A stretch of DNA of 64,000 nucleotides. Source: Rubrobacter tropicus. GTDB taxonomy: Bacteria; Actinomycetota; Rubrobacteria; Rubrobacterales; Rubrobacteraceae. The stretch covers positions 3,038,001-3,102,000 of the forward strand of contig NZ_CP045119.1 of the NCBI RefSeq assembly GCF_011492945.1, given 5' to 3'. A program made the translations under genes and the position numbers. The notes below the pieces were generated by a model. The model was given only the letters and a program-made list of their open reading frames with translations, had not been told where the DNA came from and did no database searches. Positions 7,078 through 49,292 of the stretch are shown one piece after another; the first letter of the stretch is position 1; each line of letters starts with the position of its first letter.

Positions 7078-8079
7078 GTGATGCGAGAAGGTACCGTGGA
7101 GGTGATCTCGCTCGATAAGGGCGGGGAGGACGCCGGGCAGATGGCCCGCGACGTGGGCTCCGGCCTGTCGACGACCCCGAAGGACCTCTCTCCGTGGCCC
7201 AAGTACTTCTACGACGCCGAGGGCTCGCGGCTCTTCGAGGAGATCACGGCGCAGCCCGAGTACTACCAGACGGGGGCGGAGCTCTCGATCCTCAAGAGCC
7301 GCTCGGAGGAGATCCTCGCCCGCACCCGCTGCCGGGAGCTCGTCGAGCTCGGCTCCGGTTCGGCGAGCAAGACCCGCGCCCTGATAGACGCCATGATCGA
7401 CGCGAACGGCGCGGACGGCCCGCCTCCCCGCTACGTGCCCCTGGACGTGAGCGAGAGCGCGCTCAGGGAGAGCGGCGAAAGGCTAGTCGCGGAGTACCCG
7501 GGGCTCGAGATCCAGGGCTTCGTCGGGGACTTCGACCTCTCCCTGGGGCGCCTGCTCGGGCGGCCGTCGGACCGGAACCGCCTCGTCGCCTTTCTCGGCG
7601 GCACCGTCGGCAACTTCACGCCACAGAAGCGGCGGAAGTTCCTCGGCGCCTTGCGGGCCGGGCTGCGCGAGGGGGACCGGGCCCTGATCGGGCTGGACCT
7701 CGTCAAGGACGCCCGGACGCTCGAGGCCGCCTACAACGACGCCGCCGGCGTGACCGCCCGGTTCAACAGGAACATGATCCGGGTCATCAACAACCGCCTC
7801 GGCGCCGGCCTCGACCCCGACCTCTTCTCCCACCGCGCCGTCTACGACGCCGATCTGGAACGCATCGAGATGTGGCTCTACTCGGAGGCCGAGCAGAAGG
7901 TCCAGACCCCGGACCTCGAAGCCCGATTCGAGGGCGGGGAGGGCGTCCGTACCGAGATCAGCGCGAAGTTCACCCCGGAATCCGCCGCCCGAACCTTCGA
8001 GCAATCCGGCCTGGAGCTACTGGACATCTACACCGACGACAGAGACCTCTTCGCCCTGGCACTCGGCGGTCCGGCGTAG
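7078..8079 (+). CDS. egtD: L-histidine N(alpha)-methyltransferase EgtD
   Basis: A 333-residue SAM-dependent enzyme that trimethylates histidine to hercynine, the first step of ergothioneine synthesis. SKYFYD-type features appear as WPKYFYDAEGSRLFEEITAQ near residue 40, with the SAM-binding VELGSGSASKTRALIDAM near residue 88 and FLGGTVGNF further on. The start is GTG 7078 or ATG 7081; they differ by one residue. It follows egtC by 22 bases, so the pair is an operon. No egtA (glutamate-cysteine ligase) or egtE is present nearby. Confidence 0.95.
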   Translation: MMREGTVEVISLDKGGEDAGQMARDVGSGLSTTPKDLSPWPKYFYDAEGSRLFEEITAQPEYYQTGAELSILKSRSEEILARTRCRELVELGSGSASKTRALIDAMIDANGADGPPPRYVPLDVSESALRESGERLVAEYPGLEIQGFVGDFDLSLGRLLGRPSDRNRLVAFLGGTVGNFTPQKRRKFLGALRAGLREGDRALIGLDLVKDARTLEAAYNDAAGVTARFNRNMIRVINNRLGAGLDPDLFSHRAVYDADLERIEMWLYSEAEQKVQTPDLEARFEGGEGVRTEISAKFTPESAARTFEQSGLELLDIYTDDRDLFALALGGPA

Positions 8080-8087
8080 AAAGGCTT

Positions 8088-8240
8088 TCAGCCATCAGCT
8101 GTCAGCTGGTCGTCTTGACCCGAAGCGTCTGTTCGGAGGAGGTTCTTTAGAATCGGATCTCCATGCGAAAGCGTCGCCACGGCCCAACAAACCATCTCTC
8201 TGGCGAAAAGCCCTGCTGGCTGAAAGCTGACCGCTGACAG
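8088..8240. repeat. Inverted pair of heptad arrays after egtD
   Basis: TCAGCNN units (8091-8110) and GCTGANN units (8217-8239) flank about 105 bases with no recognisable gene. The layout and spacing match the egtB-egtC gap. Confidence 0.65.
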
Positions 8241-8241
8241 C

Positions 8242-8262
8242 GCGGCTTGCGGAGCAAGCCGC
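8242..8262 (-). terminator. Triloop hairpin at the stop of the SRPBCC-like gene
   Basis: GCGGCTTGC (8242-8250), loop GGA, GCAAGCCGC (8254-8262). Read on the minus strand it starts at the last base of the TAG stop of the gene at 8262-8768 and runs into heptad repeats. It probably ends transcription of that gene. Confidence 0.6.
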
Positions 8263-8768
8263 TACAGCGCCGACTCCATCCAGCGCGGGAACCTGGACCA
8301 GAAGACCCGCTGCCCGAGATCCCAAACCCGCACGAACGGGCGGCGCACGAGGGCGTCGAGGCGCAGGGTAACTACCGTCCCCCCTCCCCCCTCCTCGGCC
8401 CAGAACTGGAGCCGGGTCGGGCGCGCGAGGCGCGGGCTGAGGGCGTAGGAGCCGTAGAAGTATTTGAGGTCCCTGTAGGCGGGCTCGTCTCCGGGCCCGC
8501 GCACCCGCCCGATGACGCCTGCCGCGTTCAGGAACGGGCCGTGGTGGGCGTTGAGCACGCCGGGCTCGAAGCCGCCGTCCACGAACTCGACCCCGAAGGG
8601 CCACACCTGACCTTCGACGAACGTCGCCGGGTCGTTCAGCCAGGCCCAGACGGGGCCGATGGAATGATCCACGACGAACGTTTTCCGGTAAGCGTGCTCC
8701 ACGAAGCCCTCTGGGGCGCCCGTGGGCACCGCGACGTTCTCAGGCCCGATCTCCGGGTCAAACCTCAT
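8262..8768 (-). CDS. SRPBCC-like protein of unknown function
   Basis: A 168-residue protein starting MRFDPEIGPENVAVPTGAPE. The middle part (FVVDHSIGPVWAWLNDPATF) and the later strands (LQFWAEEGGGGTVVTLRLDAL) suggest a START/SRPBCC ligand-binding fold, as in polyketide-cyclase-like proteins; no catalytic residue can be named. ATG 8768 is used because it overlaps the stop of the upstream gene as ATGA, implying translational coupling. A much longer in-frame extension upstream is out of frame with that gene and unlikely. Confidence 0.7.
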   Translation of the reverse strand: MRFDPEIGPENVAVPTGAPEGFVEHAYRKTFVVDHSIGPVWAWLNDPATFVEGQVWPFGVEFVDGGFEPGVLNAHHGPFLNAAGVIGRVRGPGDEPAYRDLKYFYGSYALSPRLARPTRLQFWAEEGGGGTVVTLRLDALVRRPFVRVWDLGQRVFWSRFPRWMESAL

Positions 8769-9094
8769 AAGACCTTCACCTTCGCGGCCATGTCCGTAAC
8801 CCCACCGTACCCGTTCTTCTCGTAGAGATCTTTGGCCGGGATTCCGAGCCCCGTAAAAAGGAAGACGCTCCCGACGCCCACCTCCCGCAAACGGTCCTCC
8901 AGGCGCGTGGGTGGTCTGCCGCCGACGACACACACGGAGCCCTCGAAACCCGGGGAGCGGTAGATCTTCACCAGCCTCTCCCGGGCCGTTCGCGTGCCCC
9001 ACGGCTCCGAGGCGAACACCGAAGCGTACGGCGCGTCGCATCCGTCCAAGAAATCCTCACGGAAAAACCCGATCTCCTCAGGCGTCATGCCCAC
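8765..9094 (-). CDS. Small unknown protein coupled to the SRPBCC-like gene
   Basis: A protein of 107-109 residues (start ATG 9088 or GTG 9094), beginning MTPEEIGFFREDFLDGCDAPYASVF. The section GFEGSVCVVGGRPPTRLEDRLREVGVGSVFLFTG looks like an alpha/beta segment, but I do not recognise the family. It shares an ATGA overlap with the following gene, so the products may work together. Confidence 0.65.
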   Translation of the reverse strand: MGMTPEEIGFFREDFLDGCDAPYASVFASEPWGTRTARERLVKIYRSPGFEGSVCVVGGRPPTRLEDRLREVGVGSVFLFTGLGIPAKDLYEKNGYGGVTDMAAKVKVL

Positions 9095-9131
9095 AGACTA
9101 CAGGATGGACCGCTGATGCGGCGCGCCGATA

Positions 9132-10228
9132 CTAGAACGCATACCGCACCCGACAATAAGGCATCTTCTCCGAAAGGAGCGCGCGGAACTCCCGCAACAG
9201 GCCCCGCTTGAGGTTCCGCTCGTAGCGCAAGACGCGACTGCCGCTCGCCTGCGAGATCTTGTGCTCCTGGACGTCCGGCCGCCACAGGATCTTCTCGCCC
9301 TCCGGGTGCTAGCCCAGGTTGACCTCGTGAAGTTCCCCAGTGTGCGTGAGGAATATGACCTCGGCCGCCAACTGCGTCTTCGCCGCCGGGGAGAGCGCGG
9401 CGTCGAGCATCCCGAAAAGCTCGGCGTAATCGTCGAGCCAGCCGTCCTTGAAGATCACGGGCCCGAAGTTCACGTTCACCTCGTAACCCGCCTCCACGAA
9501 GTCGTTTATGGCCGAGATGCGCCGCCCGACCGGCGAGGTCCGAACGTCCACGAGCTTCGCGGTCTCCGGCGGCATCAGCGAGAACCTCAGGCGCGTCTTG
9601 CGCTGCGGATCGTAGTCCAGCAGCTCCCGATTCACGAACTTGGTCGCGAACGTCGCCTTCGCGTTGGGAAGCTCGCGAAAGAGGCCAACCGCATCCCTGA
9701 CGTTGTCCGAGACGGCGGCGTCGACCGAGAGGTCGCTGTTGGTCCCGAGCTCGTAGACCCAGAGGCCCTCATCGGCCTGCGTCCCCTCGAACTTGAAGCC
9801 CTGCTTCGCCGCGTGCCGCTCGACGGCGCCCAGGATCTCCCCGCTGTTCACGAAGGTCGTTATGGGGTTGGCGTAGCCCTTCCGGCGGCCTACGTAACAA
9901 TAGCTGCAGGCCATCGCGCAGCCGTTTGCCTGCGACGGGGCTATAAAGTCCGCGCTGCGATAGAAGGAACGGATACCGAGCCCCTTCTTGACGCCCAGCA
10001 CGAGCACGCTCTTCTTGTTCCGGGTCCAGTCGCCGACGCCGCCGGCGTCCCCGTGGAGCGCGGGTATGTTCCAGTGCGAGGGCACCTCCACCCGTTCGGC
10101 ATCGGGGAAGCGGGCCAGGATCTCGCCCCCCGCGCGTAGTCGGCGACGTTCGGCTCGTGGTAGATCTTCTCCACCCCCAACAGCCCGTTCGCGACCCTAG
10201 ACGCCCCGCTCTTCGCCGTATCTCTCAC
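9132..10228 (-). pseudogene. Spore-photolyase-like radical SAM protein, broken by one frameshift and one nonsense codon
   Basis: Joining three pieces gives a protein of the spore photoproduct lyase-like radical SAM family. The N-terminal piece (GTG 10228, MRDTAKSGASRVANGLLGVE) runs to a C6 run at 10126-10131 (plus strand), where one missing base moves the frame. The central piece has the Fe-S motif CAMACSYC (CX3CX2C). It ends at an in-frame TAG at 9311-9309 after HEVNLG. Beyond that TAG the same frame continues for about 58 residues (HPEGEKILWRPDVQEHK) to a family-typical RVRYAF end at 9132. A TGG-to-TAG change would explain the stop. Real decay or sequence error are both possible; the function in a non-spore lineage is unknown. 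Confidence 0.75.
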
Positions 10229-10506
10229 ACAAGAGTTCTACGGCAACCCGCAGCACCAGACAGTAACCCGTAACACCCGAAAGCCCCCACCGCATTGGCG
10301 ACGGGGGCCCGTAGACTCACGAACTGCTTGAAGGCTATAGCGGTTTGCAAAGAGGTTGGGCCTCTTCGCAGGGCTCTCAGCCTTCAGCAAGGGCAAAAAG
10401 CTGATGGCTGAGAGCGGAGGCGAAGCCGCAGCGGGCTGACAAGCTGACCGCGCGGATCGCGGGGGCGATGCCCCCGCGATCCGCTTTAAGACCTGATGCT
10501 TGAAAC
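10229..10506. repeat. Intergenic region with heptad repeats
   Basis: No gene is seen. TCAGC units at about 10376-10390 are followed by GCTGA units at about 10400-10450. Between them is a copy of the GGAGGCGAAGCCG element also seen near 1225, 12865 and 45085. The repeats abut the long hairpin at 10452-10484. Confidence 0.6.
10452..10484 (-). terminator. 15-base-stem triloop hairpin downstream of the cupin gene
   Basis: GCGGATCGCGGGGGC (10452-10466), loop GAT, GCCCCCGCGATCCGC (10470-10484): a perfect 15-base stem with a three-base loop, 22 bases after the cupin stop. It is the strongest member of the triloop hairpin set. Confidence 0.65.
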
Positions 10507-10848
10507 CTACTCGTCGCGTCCGTGGACTTCGGCGGGCGGGCTCGTCGCCTCGACGGCGGTGAAGCTCTCCAGGATGTTGTAGGTGTGGGAGGCGCCCTTC
10601 GGGACGAGCCAGGAGTCGCCGGGCTCCAGCAGAACCATCTGGCCTTCGAGGTGCAGTTCGGCGCGGCCGGAGATCACGTACCCGACGGTCTCGTAGTCGC
10701 GGCTGGCCTCGGGCTTGGGATCCGAGGGCTCCTCGCCGTCCCACAGGCGCATCGAGACGGACTTGCCGTCGGCGAGGTACTTCTGGCCCATTCCGCCTTT
10801 GGGCGAGGTCTTCGAGCTTACTTTCTTGACGCTCTTGTCTGCGGTCAT
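10507..10848 (-). CDS. Cupin-domain protein
   Basis: A 113-residue single-domain cupin starting MTADKSVKKVSSKTSPKG. The core has YETVGYVISGRAELHLEGQ (cupin motif 1 region) and LEPGDSWLVPKGASHTYNI (motif 2 region). Motif 1 lacks the usual HxH pair, so metal binding may be weak or absent. ATG 10848 is 55 bases downstream of the Fur gene on the same strand, so the two may share a transcript. A role in redox or metal response is inferred from this neighbour only. Confidence 0.82.
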   Translation of the reverse strand: MTADKSVKKVSSKTSPKGGMGQKYLADGKSVSMRLWDGEEPSDPKPEASRDYETVGYVISGRAELHLEGQMVLLEPGDSWLVPKGASHTYNILESFTAVEATSPPAEVHGRDE

Positions 10849-40774: not shown

Positions 40775-40885
40775 GTCAGCGCGGCGCTGCGCGCCTTTCA
40801 GCACGCTCCCTGCGGTCGCTCTCAGCTTGTCAGCCAGAAAGCTGAAGTGCTGACAGGCTGAAATGCTGACAGGCTGACTTTTCGC
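40775..40885. repeat. Heptad repeats between msrB and doxX
   Basis: TCAGC units at 40775-40835 and GCTGA units at 40840-40876 run up to the DoxX stop. The GCTGACAGGCTGA unit appears twice. Confidence 0.65.
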
Positions 40886-44935: not shown

Positions 44936-45130
44936 CAGCATTTCAGCCTGTCAGCCAGGTCGTCTGTGAGCGATACGTTCTCCGGCAACCCAAACGCTGC
45001 GTCACGCGCTGCCCGGTAGGGCCGCGAGCGGCAGGAAGCTGACTGGCTGAGAGCGAGGACTGCGAAGCAGTCCGATGCGTGCTGAAAGCGGAGGCGAAGC
45101 CGGAGCGGGCCGACGAGCCGCGAAGCGGCG
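44936..45130. repeat. Heptads and triloop hairpin between crcB relic and ZIP gene
   Basis: TCAGC units (44936-44962) and several GCTGA units (45035-45115) are mixed with the hairpin GGACTGC-gaa-GCAGTCC (45056-45072) and a copy of GGAGGCGAAGCCGGAGC (about 45090). The region from 44580 to 44778 shows no feature. Confidence 0.6.
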
Positions 45131-45132
45131 GG

Positions 45133-45951
45133 CTATCCCAGCGCGACGTCGAGGGTCATCATGACGGCGAAGCCGACCATCAGGGACATGGCGGCGATGT
45201 CGGGGCTGCCGCGTTTGGCCTCGGGGATCAGCTCCTCGGCGACCACGAAGATCATGGCCCCGGCGGCGAAGGCGAGGGCGTAGGGCAAAACGGGCTGGGC
45301 CAGGAGCACGACCGAGGCCCCGATAACCGCGGCCACGGGTTCGACCACGCCCGAGAGCTGCCCGTAGAAGAAGCTTTTGCCCCGGCTCATCCCCTCGCGC
45401 CTGAGGGGCATGGAGACCGCGGTGCCCTCCGGAAAATTCTGCAGCCCGATGCCGATGGCGAGCGCTATGGCTCCCCCAGGGTGGCGCCCGGCACGCCCTG
45501 CGTGAGGCCCAGCCCCACCGCCCGAAGCTCACCCCACGGCCAGCCCCTCCGGGATGTTGTGGAGCGTTATCGCCGAGACGAGCAACACGCTCCGCCGCCA
45601 ACTGGTGTGAGGACCCTCGGCCTCGGAGATCTTCATCCCAGGATGCAGGTGCGGCAGGGCCTTGTCCAGGAGCCGAAGGAAGACTCCACCGGCGAGGAAC
45701 CCGATGATCGGCGGCACCCACACGGGCAGGGCCCCCCCCTCGGAGAGGTCTATGGCCGGCGCCAGTAGCGACCAGAAGCTGGCCGCGATCATGACGCCCG
45801 CCGCGAACCCGAGCATCGCATCCAACAACTTACGCGGTACTTTCTTCGTCCCGAAAACGAGCGCCGCACCCGCCGCCGTCATCCCCCACGTGAACAGGGT
45901 GGCCAGCAACGCCTGCAATACGGGCGGCAGATCCGCGAACACGCCCATCAC
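45133..45951 (-). pseudogene. ZIP-family metal transporter (ZupT/GufA-like) with three apparent frameshifts
   Basis: The first 140 residues ([55 protein letters not shown]) carry the TM4 metal motif HNIPEG. A TGA then follows. Adding one base at each of the C runs 45532-45535, 45521-45523 and 45473-45477 (plus strand) joins it to [20 protein letters not shown], a second motif [19 protein letters not shown] and the last 90 residues ([20 protein letters not shown]). The sum is three bases, so both ends share a frame. Total length about 270 residues, normal for ZupT. Zn, Fe or Mn substrate. Confidence 0.78.
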
Positions 45952-46050: not shown

Positions 46051-46067
46051 TTTAGTTCCACTTAAAA
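46051..46067 (-). promoter_or_regulatory. Weak TTAG/CTTAA box before the ZIP gene
   Basis: TTTAGTTCCACTTAAAA, about 100 bases upstream of the start at 45951, partly resembles the TTAG-N-CTAA boxes at 12433 and 48509. A 12-base palindrome, AAACCCGGGTTT, lies at 46086-46097. Support is weak. Confidence 0.3.
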
Positions 46068-46104: not shown

Positions 46105-46250
46105 GCACGGCGCCTTCGGCGCCTCTCAGCACGCTGCGCCCTTCGGGCTACGCTTTCAGCACGCTCCCTCCGGTCGCTCTCAGCCGGTCAGCAAAACTTT
46201 TGCTGACCGGCTGAAACGCTGACAGGCTGCGGTTCGCGAAGCGAACCGCA
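46105..46250 (-). repeat. Heptads with two hairpins at the end of the ZIP-like gene
   Basis: TCAGC/GCTGA units surround a 15-base perfect stem (AGCCGGTCAGCAAAA at 46182-46196, centre C, right arm to 46212) and the triloop hairpin GCGGTTCGC-gaa-GCGAACCGC (46229-46249). The triloop stem ends one base from the stop at 46251, so it is probably the terminator of that gene. Confidence 0.6.
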
Positions 46251-47438
46251 TCAGACGCTGACGAGAAGGGCGGTCGCGTACATGATCGCGACGCCCGCCG
46301 TGAGCCCGCCGAGGTTGGACGCCGAGAGCGCCGGCTTCCTGGACCTCTCGGAGTCTTTGAGAAGGAGCCGCGAGACTTCGTAGATGACCTGGAGTATGGC
46401 GCCGGCGCCGACGGCCAGGAACAGGGCCGCGGCCAGCGGCGAGTAGGCGAAGCCGGCGATCCAAGTCCCGAGGATGGCGGGCCCGCCGCCGAGCAACGCC
46501 AGCCCGATAAAGTGCGACAGGGAAGGCCTCTCCTTGAGGATCGGCGCGGCGATCCCGATCCCCTCGGTGATGTTGTGCAGCGTGAAGCCGATGACGAGGA
46601 AGGTGCCGAGGGCAACCTCGCCCAGCGCGAAAGCCGCCCCAATAGCCAATCCCTCGCCGAGGTTGTGCAGCCCGATCCCGCCCGCTATCCGGTAGGAGGT
46701 CGAGAGCCGGCTGCTCTCCCCGCCCCCGCGGCGGAAGAGCCGGCCGGAGCCGAGGAGCCCGAGAAGGGTGAGTGCCGTTACGGAGAGCACCATCGGGACC
46801 CCCGAGAAGAAACCGGGGAGGGTCCCGGCTGTCTCCACGGCGTCGAGCAGGGTGTCGAGCACCAGCCAGAACAGGAGCCCCACGGTAAGCGCGAGCACGA
46901 AGTTCATCCCCGACGATCCGAGCCGCCGCAGGAACGGGTACCACAGGAGGCCGAGGGAGACCGGAACGACGCCGACGTAGAAGCCGATCAGCGCGTAGCG
47001 CCAGAACGCGTCGCCCGTGAGGCCCGGCGTCAGGACCGCCAGCGGGACCTCCGCCTCGAAGGTGGTGCCGGTGGCGGAGATCATGCCTATCCCGTAGGCC
47101 TCGCCTTCGACCCACGTGTACGGGATGGTTATCTCGGCCGAACCGCGCGGCGGCACGGTGTTGCCTGGCGTCATCTCGAAGTCCCACAACGCCTCGTTGA
47201 CCGTTACCTGCTCTACCGTGACCGGGTCGGGGCCGCCGTTGGTGACGTGGACCACGATCTCGTTCTCCGTCGGCAGGGCGACCCGCGTGGCGGTCAGGTC
47301 CTCGACGGGCGGCACGTCCTCGCGCCCGATGCCGGCGCCGTTTAGCGTGATCAGGGCGAGCAGCACGCCGAGGCCCAACAGCGGCAACAACCCGAGCAAC
47401 ACCCAGACCGGCCCGCGCCCTTTGTTTGTCTTCCCCAC
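46251..47438 (-). CDS. ZIP-like metal permease with extracytoplasmic N-terminal domain
   Basis: A 395-residue protein. A single membrane anchor (VLLGLLPLLGLGVLLALITL) is followed by a beta-rich outer domain of about 110 residues (ENEIVVHVTNGGPDPVTVEQ). A ZIP domain with eight helices follows. The two ZIP metal motifs are IGLHNLGEGLAIGAAFALG and GFTLHNITEGIGIAAPILKE. GTG 47438 follows GAGGAG, which overlaps the stop region of the multicopper oxidase gene only three bases away. The close linkage suggests the oxidase and permease act on the same metal at the outer face of the membrane. Confidence 0.85.
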   Translation of the reverse strand: MGKTNKGRGPVWVLLGLLPLLGLGVLLALITLNGAGIGREDVPPVEDLTATRVALPTENEIVVHVTNGGPDPVTVEQVTVNEALWDFEMTPGNTVPPRGSAEITIPYTWVEGEAYGIGMISATGTTFEAEVPLAVLTPGLTGDAFWRYALIGFYVGVVPVSLGLLWYPFLRRLGSSGMNFVLALTVGLLFWLVLDTLLDAVETAGTLPGFFSGVPMVLSVTALTLLGLLGSGRLFRRGGGESSRLSTSYRIAGGIGLHNLGEGLAIGAAFALGEVALGTFLVIGFTLHNITEGIGIAAPILKERPSLSHFIGLALLGGGPAILGTWIAGFAYSPLAAALFLAVGAGAILQVIYEVSRLLLKDSERSRKPALSASNLGGLTAGVAIMYATALLVSV

Positions 47439-47441
47439 CGT

Positions 47442-48467
47442 CTACTCCTCAACCTCGAAGAGGCCCATCCAGCCGAGCTCGGCGAACTCGCTGACGTGGG
47501 CGTGGAACATGAACCGTCCGGGGAAGCCGTAGCGGAGTTCCATGATCCCGCGCTCCCCCTGCGCCAACATCTTGGTGTCCGTGAACTCAGACGGCTCCAG
47601 CTTCGTGCCCGTCGGATAGTAGTCGAAGAAGTTGGCGTGGGTGTGGAAGCTGTTTATAAAGTCGAACTCGAGCGCGTTGACCACGTAGATCCTGACGAGC
47701 TCGTCTTTTTTTATCTTTACGGGATGCTTCTGGTGGTGGAACGCGACGGTGTTGACCGCGTAAACCTCGTTGGCGCCGTCGAAGTTGGTGTCGAAGCCGT
47801 TTAGCACCATCACCATCTCGTCTGCCTCGGGACGCCCCTCTTTCGGATCTATGATGAAAGCACCGTACAACCCCTTCTCGATGTGCTTCTTGAGCGGCAT
47901 GGTGTGGCAGTGGTAGAGGTGGCAGCCAAAGGGCTCGGCGTCGAACTCGTAGACGAACTCCTGCCCGGGGCCGACCATCTCGAACACCCCGTCCATGTTG
48001 GCCGGATGGAAGCCGTGGAAGTGGATGGTGTGCGGGTGGGCCCCCCGGTTCTTGAAGACGACCCGCAGGCGGTCCCCCTCCGTGGCCCTGAGCGTCGGCC
48101 CCGGAACCTGCCCGTTGTAGGCCCAGGCCGGGTACATCACGCCCGGGGCGACCTCTATATCGACCTCCTCGGCCGAGATCTCCCACTCCCTGACGGTCCT
48201 ACCGCCCTCGCGGCGCTCCTGGCCGTAGTCGAAGTGGCGCAGGAACTTCATGGGATCGAACCTCGAAAGATCCACGTCCCCCGCCGTCCCGTTGCCGCCG
48301 TGGGACATCCCCGTCATTTCCGACCCCATCGCGTGCCCGGAGTGGTCCTGGCCCAGAGCCCGGCCAGCGTGCGCCCCCAGCAACCCGCCAGAGACACCCA
48401 CAGCCCCCGCGACACCCGCGGCCCTCAGAAAGTCACGCCTCGAAACCGCGCCCTCTACCCTTCTCAT
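47442..48467 (-). CDS. Two-domain multicopper oxidase, Tat-exported
   Basis: A 341-residue secreted enzyme. A Tat signal (SRRDFLRAAGVAGAVGVSGG) and a Met/His-rich linker (HSGHAMGSEMTGMSHGG) precede two cupredoxin domains. Domain 1 has HTIHFHGFHPANMDG and CHLYHCHTMPLKKH, giving type 1 Cys-His-Met and trinuclear histidines. Domain 2 has NSFHTHANFFDYYP and RFMFHAHVSEF but no Cys, so only domain 1 keeps a type 1 copper, like the type C two-domain oxidases. Likely activity is metal (Fe/Mn) or phenol oxidation; the following ZIP gene favours a metal. Two TTAG-N6-CTAA boxes precede it. Confidence 0.9.
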   Translation of the reverse strand: MRRVEGAVSRRDFLRAAGVAGAVGVSGGLLGAHAGRALGQDHSGHAMGSEMTGMSHGGNGTAGDVDLSRFDPMKFLRHFDYGQERREGGRTVREWEISAEEVDIEVAPGVMYPAWAYNGQVPGPTLRATEGDRLRVVFKNRGAHPHTIHFHGFHPANMDGVFEMVGPGQEFVYEFDAEPFGCHLYHCHTMPLKKHIEKGLYGAFIIDPKEGRPEADEMVMVLNGFDTNFDGANEVYAVNTVAFHHQKHPVKIKKDELVRIYVVNALEFDFINSFHTHANFFDYYPTGTKLEPSEFTDTKMLAQGERGIMELRYGFPGRFMFHAHVSEFAELGWMGLFEVEE

Positions 48468-48508
48468 CCGCCCTGCCCTCGATCCCAGATCACGCCTGCA
48501 CAGAATTT

Positions 48509-48537
48509 TTAGTCTCGTCTAAATTAGCTGTGACTAA
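48509..48537. promoter_or_regulatory. Tandem TTAG-N6-CTAA boxes between multicopper oxidase and DtxR genes
   Basis: TTAGTCTCGTCTAA (48509-48522) and TTAGCTGTGACTAA (48524-48537) are separated by one base in the divergent promoter region. TTAG...CTAA ends are typical of DtxR/IdeR/MntR operators. The neighbouring DtxR-family gene makes autoregulation and control of the oxidase plausible. Confidence 0.6.
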
Positions 48538-48581
48538 TAATAAAATACGGGGATTCAAAACGCAAGGCTCGTGCTTTGGGA

Positions 48582-48596: not shown

Positions 48597-49292
48597 ATGA
48601 CTTATGGGGCCACCAAAACCTCCGTGCTCTCCGCGTCCGTTGGGGATTACCTCAAGGCCGTGTGGAGCCTTGGGGGTGCGGGGGCGGCTTCCACCAAGGA
48701 GATCTCGGTCCATCTTTCGGTTGCGCCGGCGTCTGTGACGAGCATGTTGGGCCGGTTGCAGGAGATGGGGTTGGTCAGGTACGAGCGGTATCGGGGGGCT
48801 TCGCTCACGGAGTTGGGGAGGGCCGAGGCGTTGCGGCTCGTCAGGCGGCACCGGCTGATCGAGACTTTTTTGTTGGAGCATCTCGGGTACGACTGGCAGG
48901 AGGTACACGAGGAGGCCGAAAGGCTGGAGCACGCCGTCTCGGACGGGTTCACGGAGAGGCTGGCTGAGCTTCTGGGGCATCCGGATCGGGACCCGCACGG
49001 CGACCCCATACCGACGCCCGAAGGCGCTTTGGCGGTGGACGATTCGTCCCCGTTGCGGGAGGCTGAGGCCGGGGGGTGGGTCCGCATCTACAAGGTCAGC
49101 GACGAGAGCACCGAGGCCCTAGACTACCTCGGGGAGCGCGGCCTCGTCCCCGGGCGTCTCCTGCACATTGAGGAGACGAGAGAGTTGGACGGCGTCGTGA
49201 CCGTCAGGGACGAGGACGGGGGGACGTACGCCTTGGGAGATTCGCTCGCGCGGTCCGTCTTCATCCGGCGCGAGCCCCGTTTGTCGGCCTGA
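48597..49292 (+). CDS. DtxR-family metal-dependent repressor
   Basis: A 231-residue regulator with three parts. Residues 1-65 are the winged helix (ASVGDYLKAVWSLG, APASVTSMLGRLQEMGLVRY). Residues 66-140 form the metal-binding dimerisation domain (RRHRLIETFLLEHLGYDWQE, HEEAERLEHAVSDGF). The C-terminus is an SH3-like/FeoA domain (WVRIYKVSDESTEALDYLGE). The presence of FeoA resembles IdeR/DtxR and longer MntR proteins. It is divergent from the multicopper oxidase, with two matching operators in between. Fe(II) or Mn(II) as co-repressor cannot be decided from sequence. Confidence 0.93.
   Translation: MTYGATKTSVLSASVGDYLKAVWSLGGAGAASTKEISVHLSVAPASVTSMLGRLQEMGLVRYERYRGASLTELGRAEALRLVRRHRLIETFLLEHLGYDWQEVHEEAERLEHAVSDGFTERLAELLGHPDRDPHGDPIPTPEGALAVDDSSPLREAEAGGWVRIYKVSDESTEALDYLGERGLVPGRLLHIEETRELDGVVTVRDEDGGTYALGDSLARSVFIRREPRLSA

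Follow-up and report, generated by a model that had tools for sequence, protein, structure and literature searches.

A conserved gene pair of a two-domain multicopper oxidase and a ZIP transporter with an outer domain, and its putative manganese-type control elements, in Rubrobacter tropicus and distant relatives

The window analyzed here is a 64,000-nucleotide stretch of the Rubrobacter tropicus genome (assembly GCF_011492945.1, contig NZ_CP045119.1, positions 3,038,001 to 3,102,000 of the forward strand). It carries a gene for a two-domain multicopper oxidase (MCO) followed by a gene for a ZIP-family transporter, with a regulator gene reading divergently from the pair and operator-like boxes between them (Table 1). 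The spacer between the MCO and ZIP reading frames is exactly 3 bases (47439-47441), and a GAGGAG lies 6 nt ahead of the GTG of ZIP. The initial annotation had described a Tat-exported oxidase, with type 1 copper in domain 1 only, placed three bases from a ZIP protein with an outer domain, and this description held up in the TIGR01409 and Cu-oxidase profile matches and in an AlphaFold2 model.

Table 1. Features of the oxidase-ZIP locus and its surroundings (window coordinates)
Feature	Position	Strand	Basis or remark
Two-domain multicopper oxidase, Tat-exported (predicted), 341 aa	47442..48467	-	ATG start; PDB relatives 3gdc, 7rab
Tat signal region of the oxidase, RR = residues 10-11	48354..48467	-	TIGR01409 above cut-off
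Domain 1 HCH...H...GL motif: type 1 copper site (Cys187, His195, axial Leu200) and type 2/3 ligands	47868..47912	-	sequence
Domain 2 copper ligands H275xH277 and H322xH324, without type 1 Cys	47496..47645	-	sequence
ZIP-family transporter with N-terminal anchor and outer domain, 395 aa	46251..47438	-	GTG start; sequence, model, fold
Extra N-terminal transmembrane helix of ZIP, residues 10-33	47340..47411	-	AlphaFold2 model
Outer beta-sandwich domain of ZIP, residues 45-131, FlaG/FlaF-like	47046..47306	-	AlphaFold2 model and fold matches
ZIP TM4 motif HNLGEG (H258, N259, E262), metal site M1 kept	46650..46667	-	profile alignment
ZIP TM5 motif HNITEG (H288, N289, E292)	46560..46577	-	profile alignment
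ZIP Ala321 at the place of BbZIP M2 ligand Glu240	46476..46478	-	HMMER alignments
Divergent MntR/DtxR-family regulator (HTH, metal/dimer domain, FeoA/SH3 domain)	48597..49292	+	profile matches
Operator-like box TTTAGTCTCGTCTAAA, sole exact TTTAG-N6-CTAAA site in the genome	48508..48523	.	genome motif scan
Second TTAG-N6-CTAA box, overlapping the first	48523..48538	.	motif scan
One-mismatch box copy upstream of the second ZIP gene	46051..46066	.	motif scan
Second ZIP gene, GufA/ZupT-like, without outer domain, frame broken by an in-frame TGA	45133..45951	-	reading frames, profile matches

The export signal of the oxidase scored 20.8 bits with TIGR01409 against a cut-off of 16.7, and 21.4 with Pfam TAT_signal, slightly below the cut-off of 22.7. 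Matches to Cu-oxidase_3 and Cu-oxidase_2 (86 and 82 bits against cut-offs of 21 and 20) gave two cupredoxin domains, and the type 1 Cys is confined to the first of them (H186-C187-H188, H195, axial L200). Judged by sequence, no type 1 or type 2/3 ligand is missing. Ten of the 11 tested His/Cys positions are invariant in a set of 20 MCO sequences, and the position of His154 is occupied by Asn in two haloarchaeal members of that set. Within the HCH...H...GL stretch, Cys and His are kept in all 20 sequences while the axial residue is Leu in 10 and Met in 10. The family is well separated: in 11 genomes reached through the loci described below, its members scored 543-586 bits and every other MCO at most 168, and the other MCOs of the R. 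tropicus genome are distant from the window oxidase (at best 43% over residues 92-224). Its nearest solved structures, which by sequence belong to the same family, are 3gdc (387 bits) and 7rab (383 bits), followed by one at 181 bits. We take 3gdc to be from Arthrobacter sp. FB24, and the MCO-ZIP pair is present on a plasmid of this strain, accompanied by a DtxR-family gene. Our literature search found no paper on 7RAB, and we know of no explanation so far for the gene context of either oxidase.

The ZIP protein is divergent enough that its Pfam Zip score of 31.5 bits missed the gathering score of 35.1. It matched BbZIP by sequence with an E-value of 3.7e-6, and its helical part matched BbZIP by fold with Z scores of 17-19 for most entries and 14.5 for one, showing the eight-helix ZIP fold. 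Based on the modeled fold, the BbZIP sequence match and the retained M1 site, we classed the protein as a divergent ZIP; it resembles BbZIP and the ZupT/GufA-type bacterial ZIPs in its fold and M1 site, and differs from BbZIP in its extra N-terminal helix and outer domain. Profile alignment to BbZIP places H258, N259, E262, H288, N289 and E292 at the TM4/TM5 metal-site positions, and the M2 ligands Asp208 and Glu240 of BbZIP are replaced by Asn and Ala. The latter residue, Ala321, does not vary among the 47 relatives, and a wider set of 20 sequences including the window protein has Ala in 18 and Val in 2. In place of the binuclear M1+M2 site, which is a feature of BbZIP and not common to all ZIPs, the protein thus has M1 kept and M2 lost.

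The AlphaFold2 model of ZIP (pLDDT 88, input alignment of 47) consists of a helix at residues 10-33, strands at 48-131 and then the ZIP helices, so that the outer domain is well supported as a modeled unit. Its best fold matches are the archaellum stator proteins FlaG (Z 11.7, rmsd 1.4 over 86 residues) and FlaF (Z 11.2), and no closer match stood among the fold matches listed; a Cu(I) chaperone matched more weakly (Z 8.1). No His, Cys or Met in the outer domain is conserved among the 47 relatives. Since these residues are absent as conserved positions and FlaG and FlaF are the best fold matches, a docking role seems likelier than metal binding, and the earlier suggestion that the outer domain could receive metal from the oxidase is weakened.

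Apart from the pair, the window holds the broken second ZIP gene, for which related open frames were found in loci L012 and L015. It also holds an inverted element, its ends marked by TCTCAGCCNGTCAGC, that recurs between genes at 40820-40863, 44941-45052 and 46178-46216; this element has 6 sites, compared with 0.09 in shuffles.

To see how far the pair extends, we examined the best 80 of 267 ZIP loci, chosen by ZIP similarity, from Rubrobacterales, Chloroflexota, Meiothermus, Bacillota and others. An MCO gene stands directly upstream of ZIP in all of these best 80 loci, with gaps of -29 to 175 nt (-4 in 15 of them, starts being those chosen by our script), and none of the 80 holds a natural MCO-ZIP fusion. 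Because this sample was chosen by ZIP similarity, we added genome samples that were not selected by the pair. The 39 genomes of the window's class contained 11 near-full-length ZIPs, all 11 adjoined by the MCO, plus 4 partial ZIP matches; the MCO was found at 12 places, 11 paired and 1 a partial match. Of 201 Chloroflexota genomes, 11 carried the MCO, and the same 11 carried the outer-domain ZIP next to it. A further 28 of these genomes yielded ordinary ZIP matches, with alignments starting at residue 145 or later, and lacked this MCO; across the Chloroflexota sample the outer domain of ZIP co-occurs with the oxidase. Among 299 Bacillota genomes, MCO and ZIP were found only in the centre genome, both together. 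The earlier proposal had called for a search of other genomes for the pair, and the best 80 loci, the 11 Chloroflexota genomes and plasmids including those of haloarchaea all yielded it. Adjacency by chance was considered and is ruled out by the 80 of 80 loci together with the Chloroflexota sample, which was drawn without regard to the pair and gave 11 of 11 genomes.

The plasmid survey covered 72,556 records and found MCO in 141 and ZIP in 135. For 31 of the 32 records listed for both, the two genes lie at most 240 bases apart, and the plasmid-borne pair occurs in Proteobacteria, Actinobacteria, Cyanobacteria and haloarchaea. The single exception is locus L122 on a Paroceanicella plasmid, where a transposon with genes for a Mu-type transposase, TniB and TniQ (7294-10599) separates oxidase and ZIP. 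On Bacillaceae plasmids a TatA gene lies just downstream of ZIP (L114, 6102-6278; L123, 6124-6351), as if supplying the export route of the oxidase.

We then turned to control of the pair, beginning with the window regulator, whose best NCBIfam model is Mn-dependent MntR, a match of 192 bits that missed the cut-off of 350. Iron-type DtxR proteins carry Met and Cys at the places of Asp8 and Glu99 of Bacillus subtilis MntR. Excerpts of one study give these two residues as metal ligands of B. subtilis MntR (PMC9861239), and the window regulator has Asp and Glu there. Between the regulator and the operon lies the one exact TTTAG-N6-CTAAA site of the 4.58 Mb genome. Seven further sites have one mismatch, including one before the second ZIP gene and one, on the other replicon, between a second MntR-type gene and MntH. 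With at most one mismatch the genome thus holds 8 sites compared with 21 for a reversed control pattern, so that the box is not enriched and only its placement is telling, not its number. The remaining five one-mismatch sites are not near metal transporters; sugar ABC genes flank one of them and, by eye, no metal genes were recognized around the other four. No sigma-70-like promoter was found at the box at 48508. The second MntR-type gene (L096, second replicon, C2:24500-27500) is a paralog of the window regulator that is divergent from MntH, with the one-mismatch box between them. Elsewhere in the genome, at G000:C1:3870062-3870269, another DtxR-family gene is present as two pieces that lie in different frames and may represent a broken copy.

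Using the box as taken from the window alone, we scanned the 49 of 52 non-Bacillota loci with at least 150 nt upstream. Within 300 nt the box was present exactly in 24 of the 49 and with at most one mismatch in 32; at the latter stringency 40 of the 49 had it within 1 kb and 9 were without it. The box was 94 times as dense upstream as elsewhere in these loci, and shuffles yielded 0.02 loci. Of 46 boxes, 21 stand after a TTGACA-like -35 with a -10 at the usual spacing, as compared with 3.5% of random positions, and most of these 21 cover the spacer and the -10. This position bears on the earlier idea that the oxidase could serve detoxification; for manganese, this would mean oxidation of Mn(II) to an insoluble oxide outside the cell. 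Manganese-type control would suit that role and some MCOs are capable of oxidizing Mn(II), but the operon is shared with an importer and a box lying often over the promoter is consistent with repression by Mn. Control elements of the Mn(II)-dependent repressor type, often placed over the core promoter, would give expression in Mn shortage. We regard Mn detoxification as highly improbable, and as the main reading it was rejected because the boxes often overlie promoters.

The 28 Bacillota loci appear to use a different element. Neither exact nor near TTTAG-N6-CTAAA boxes rose above background there. According to excerpts of the same study, the B. subtilis MntR box is carried by the mntH promoter and Mn(II)-MntR represses Mn import (PMC9861239). 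With at most 3 mismatches this box was found in 13 of the 28 Bacillota loci, 41-fold denser than elsewhere, and 15 were without it at this stringency; none of 60 permuted motifs reached 13 loci. Boxes like those of Fur, Zur and PerR occurred in 1, 0 and 5 of the 28 Bacillota upstream regions, none above permuted motifs.

These counts speak to the comparison with yeast made in the initial annotation and to iron uptake like that of Fet3/Ftr1, in which the oxidase would act as a ferroxidase feeding the permease. A secreted MCO together with a membrane permease follows the same logic as Fet3/Ftr1 of yeast and some bacteria, and some ZIPs are iron transporters. However, the permease there is an Fe(III) permease of the Ftr1 type, whereas the window permease is a ZIP by profile and fold and stands beside Mn-type control elements; ZIPs are generally held to carry M2+ while the product of a ferroxidase is M3+, and a Fur box was found in 1 of 28 Bacillota loci, below permuted motifs, compared with 13 of 28 for the MntR box. 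The oxidase-permease parallel survives in part, as a unit with a ZIP in the permease role that is conserved far beyond the strain, and the link to yeast Fet3/Ftr1 is one of analogy. Iron uptake of this kind is distinctly unlikely as the function of the pair.

A third arrangement was seen on plasmids of Rhizobiaceae, where the gene divergent from the pair is named mntR by NCBI. In all four rhizobial mntR regions the ATAGC-N4-GCTAT box occurs twice, with a single mismatch in one of the eight copies, and we take this sequence to be the E. coli-type MntR box; it is absent from the Roseobacter-type mntR regions of L120 and L122. Across 19 plasmid regions, 13 have a DtxR/MntR-family regulator directly beside the pair (one small gene away in L110) and 1 has a Fur-type regulator, and no DtxR/MntR-family regulator lies next to the pair in the remaining five (L109, L111, L114, L121 and L123). 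When 17 regulators were aligned, the Asp8 place held Asp in all 17, including two that are truncated within the DNA-binding domain. The Glu99 place held Glu in 14, Asp in 2 and Gln in 1. A second alignment of 14 regulators, in which those of the window and R. marinus are recounted, had Asp at the Asp8 place in 13 (Gly in L118) and, at the Glu99 place, Glu in 10 and Asp in 4. We further scanned ten regulators with curated models. For nine of them, the L096 paralog and eight near the pair, the MntR-Therm score exceeded that of iron DtxR, yet lay below the MntR-Therm cut-off; the tenth, the rhizobial mntR product of L107, was the only one of the ten to pass, with 236.8 against a proteobacterial MntR cut-off of 153. 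It is the ligand residues and the relatives, with MntR-Therm scores below cut-off, that suggest a manganese assignment for the regulators. Taken together, three separate regulatory lineages appear to place the MCO-ZIP pair under Mn-type control.

Neighboring genes add to this picture. MntH, above its curated cut-off, lies directly behind ZIP in L045 (in the order regulator-MCO-ZIP-MntH), beside mntR in L116 and, in the R. tropicus genome, behind the box with the second MntR. Weighing against a manganese function, genes of copper/zinc type also occur near the pair in many loci, with a P-type ATPase in 17, ArsR in 15 and CopC in 6 of the best 80 of 267 loci, and on rhizobial plasmids copper delivery genes adjoin it. 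The latter would fit copper uptake, in which the oxidase converts Cu(I) to Cu(II) and ZIP imports the divalent ion. This has already been proposed in print for MCO1 and the permease of ammonia-oxidizing archaea, where excerpts of the source describe a slight rise of both in Nitrososphaera viennensis under copper limitation (PMC7785015). The copper genes may equally serve the copper enzyme itself, and Mn-type regulators and boxes in three separate regulatory lineages, together with the MntH neighbors, argue against copper as the cargo; we consider copper uptake unlikely.

Third genes close behind ZIP vary by lineage and include Rieske proteins (L109, L113, L121), plastocyanin-like proteins (L118, L119) and YceI (10 of the best 80 of 267 loci). 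That they are often redox proteins would suit an oxidase acting as an electron sink for a small redox partner, or as a ligand oxidase freeing Mn from organic ligands. There is no constant partner and the pair often stands alone, and such a function is very unlikely in our estimate, with the electron-sink role kept open by the lineage-varying redox partners.

With three lineages under Mn-type control and a box position that fits repression, the reading that we prefer, and hold to be somewhat better than an even proposition, is that MCO and ZIP form one operon encoding an oxidase-permease module for Mn acquisition, repressed by a Mn(II)-loaded MntR-type regulator and switched on in Mn shortage. 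Here the regulator would sense Mn, and Mn(II)-MntR would bind the TTTAG-N6-CTAAA box and shut off transcription. When Mn is depleted, the ZIP importer with its single M1-type metal site would be made, the folded copper oxidase would be exported by Tat, and the beta domain of ZIP would probably anchor it on the outer side of the membrane. There the oxidase may use O2 to oxidize a reduced metal, most likely Fe(II) and possibly Cu(I), that would otherwise compete for ZIP, such that Mn(II), the presumed uptake substrate, could enter. The oxidase substrate is the most conjectural element of this scheme. We chose oxidation of a competitor because ZIP is expected to transport M2+, and a product made trivalent by the oxidase could not be handed on as such; even given the rest of the reading, this oxidation at the ZIP mouth is a tentative proposal, rather less likely than not.

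In its MntR-type regulator, boxes and MntH neighbors, the system resembles the MntR-controlled Mn uptake through MntH of B. subtilis and E. coli, and unlike that uptake it includes an O2-using copper oxidase as part of the unit. The closest described parallel is MCO1 of ammonia-oxidizing archaea, the gene of which adjoins a ZIP/zinc-iron permease gene according to excerpts of two reports (PMC5767755, PMC7785015). MCO1 likewise has two domains and an axial leucine; in those excerpts it is described as restricted to Thaumarchaeota and discussed for copper or hydroxylamine without mention of Mn control, and we liken it to the window oxidase by description only. Our full-text literature search found no report of the MCO-ZIP pair across bacteria and haloarchaea or of a Mn-controlled MCO-ZIP operon. 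MCO-ZIP adjacency in ammonia-oxidizing archaea is already known, and the Mn-type regulation is the main new evidence. The full proposal, which taken as a whole is rather unlikely, is that of a third kind of oxidase-permease system that crosses domains, is often plasmid-borne and serves Mn: an oxidase exported in Mn shortage and docked on the outer domain of a one-site ZIP would oxidize competing Fe(II) or Cu(I), and the pore would not be the sole source of selectivity for Mn(II), which would come from O2 chemistry.

Mn(II) is among the divalent ions that bind most weakly, and its uptake by cells amid stronger binders is an old question. If our reading is true, a conserved unit of an O2-using oxidase and a ZIP, with Mn-type control and shared by bacteria and haloarchaea, would open a chemical answer to Mn selectivity to direct testing. 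The oxidase family of 3gdc and 7rab, solved in structure yet unexplained, would also gain a function, and there would be a lead for the MCO1-permease pair of ammonia oxidizers, which is likewise unexplained. The MCO-ZIP pair under Mn-type switches suggests a little-studied way of collecting Mn with the aid of an oxygen-using enzyme.
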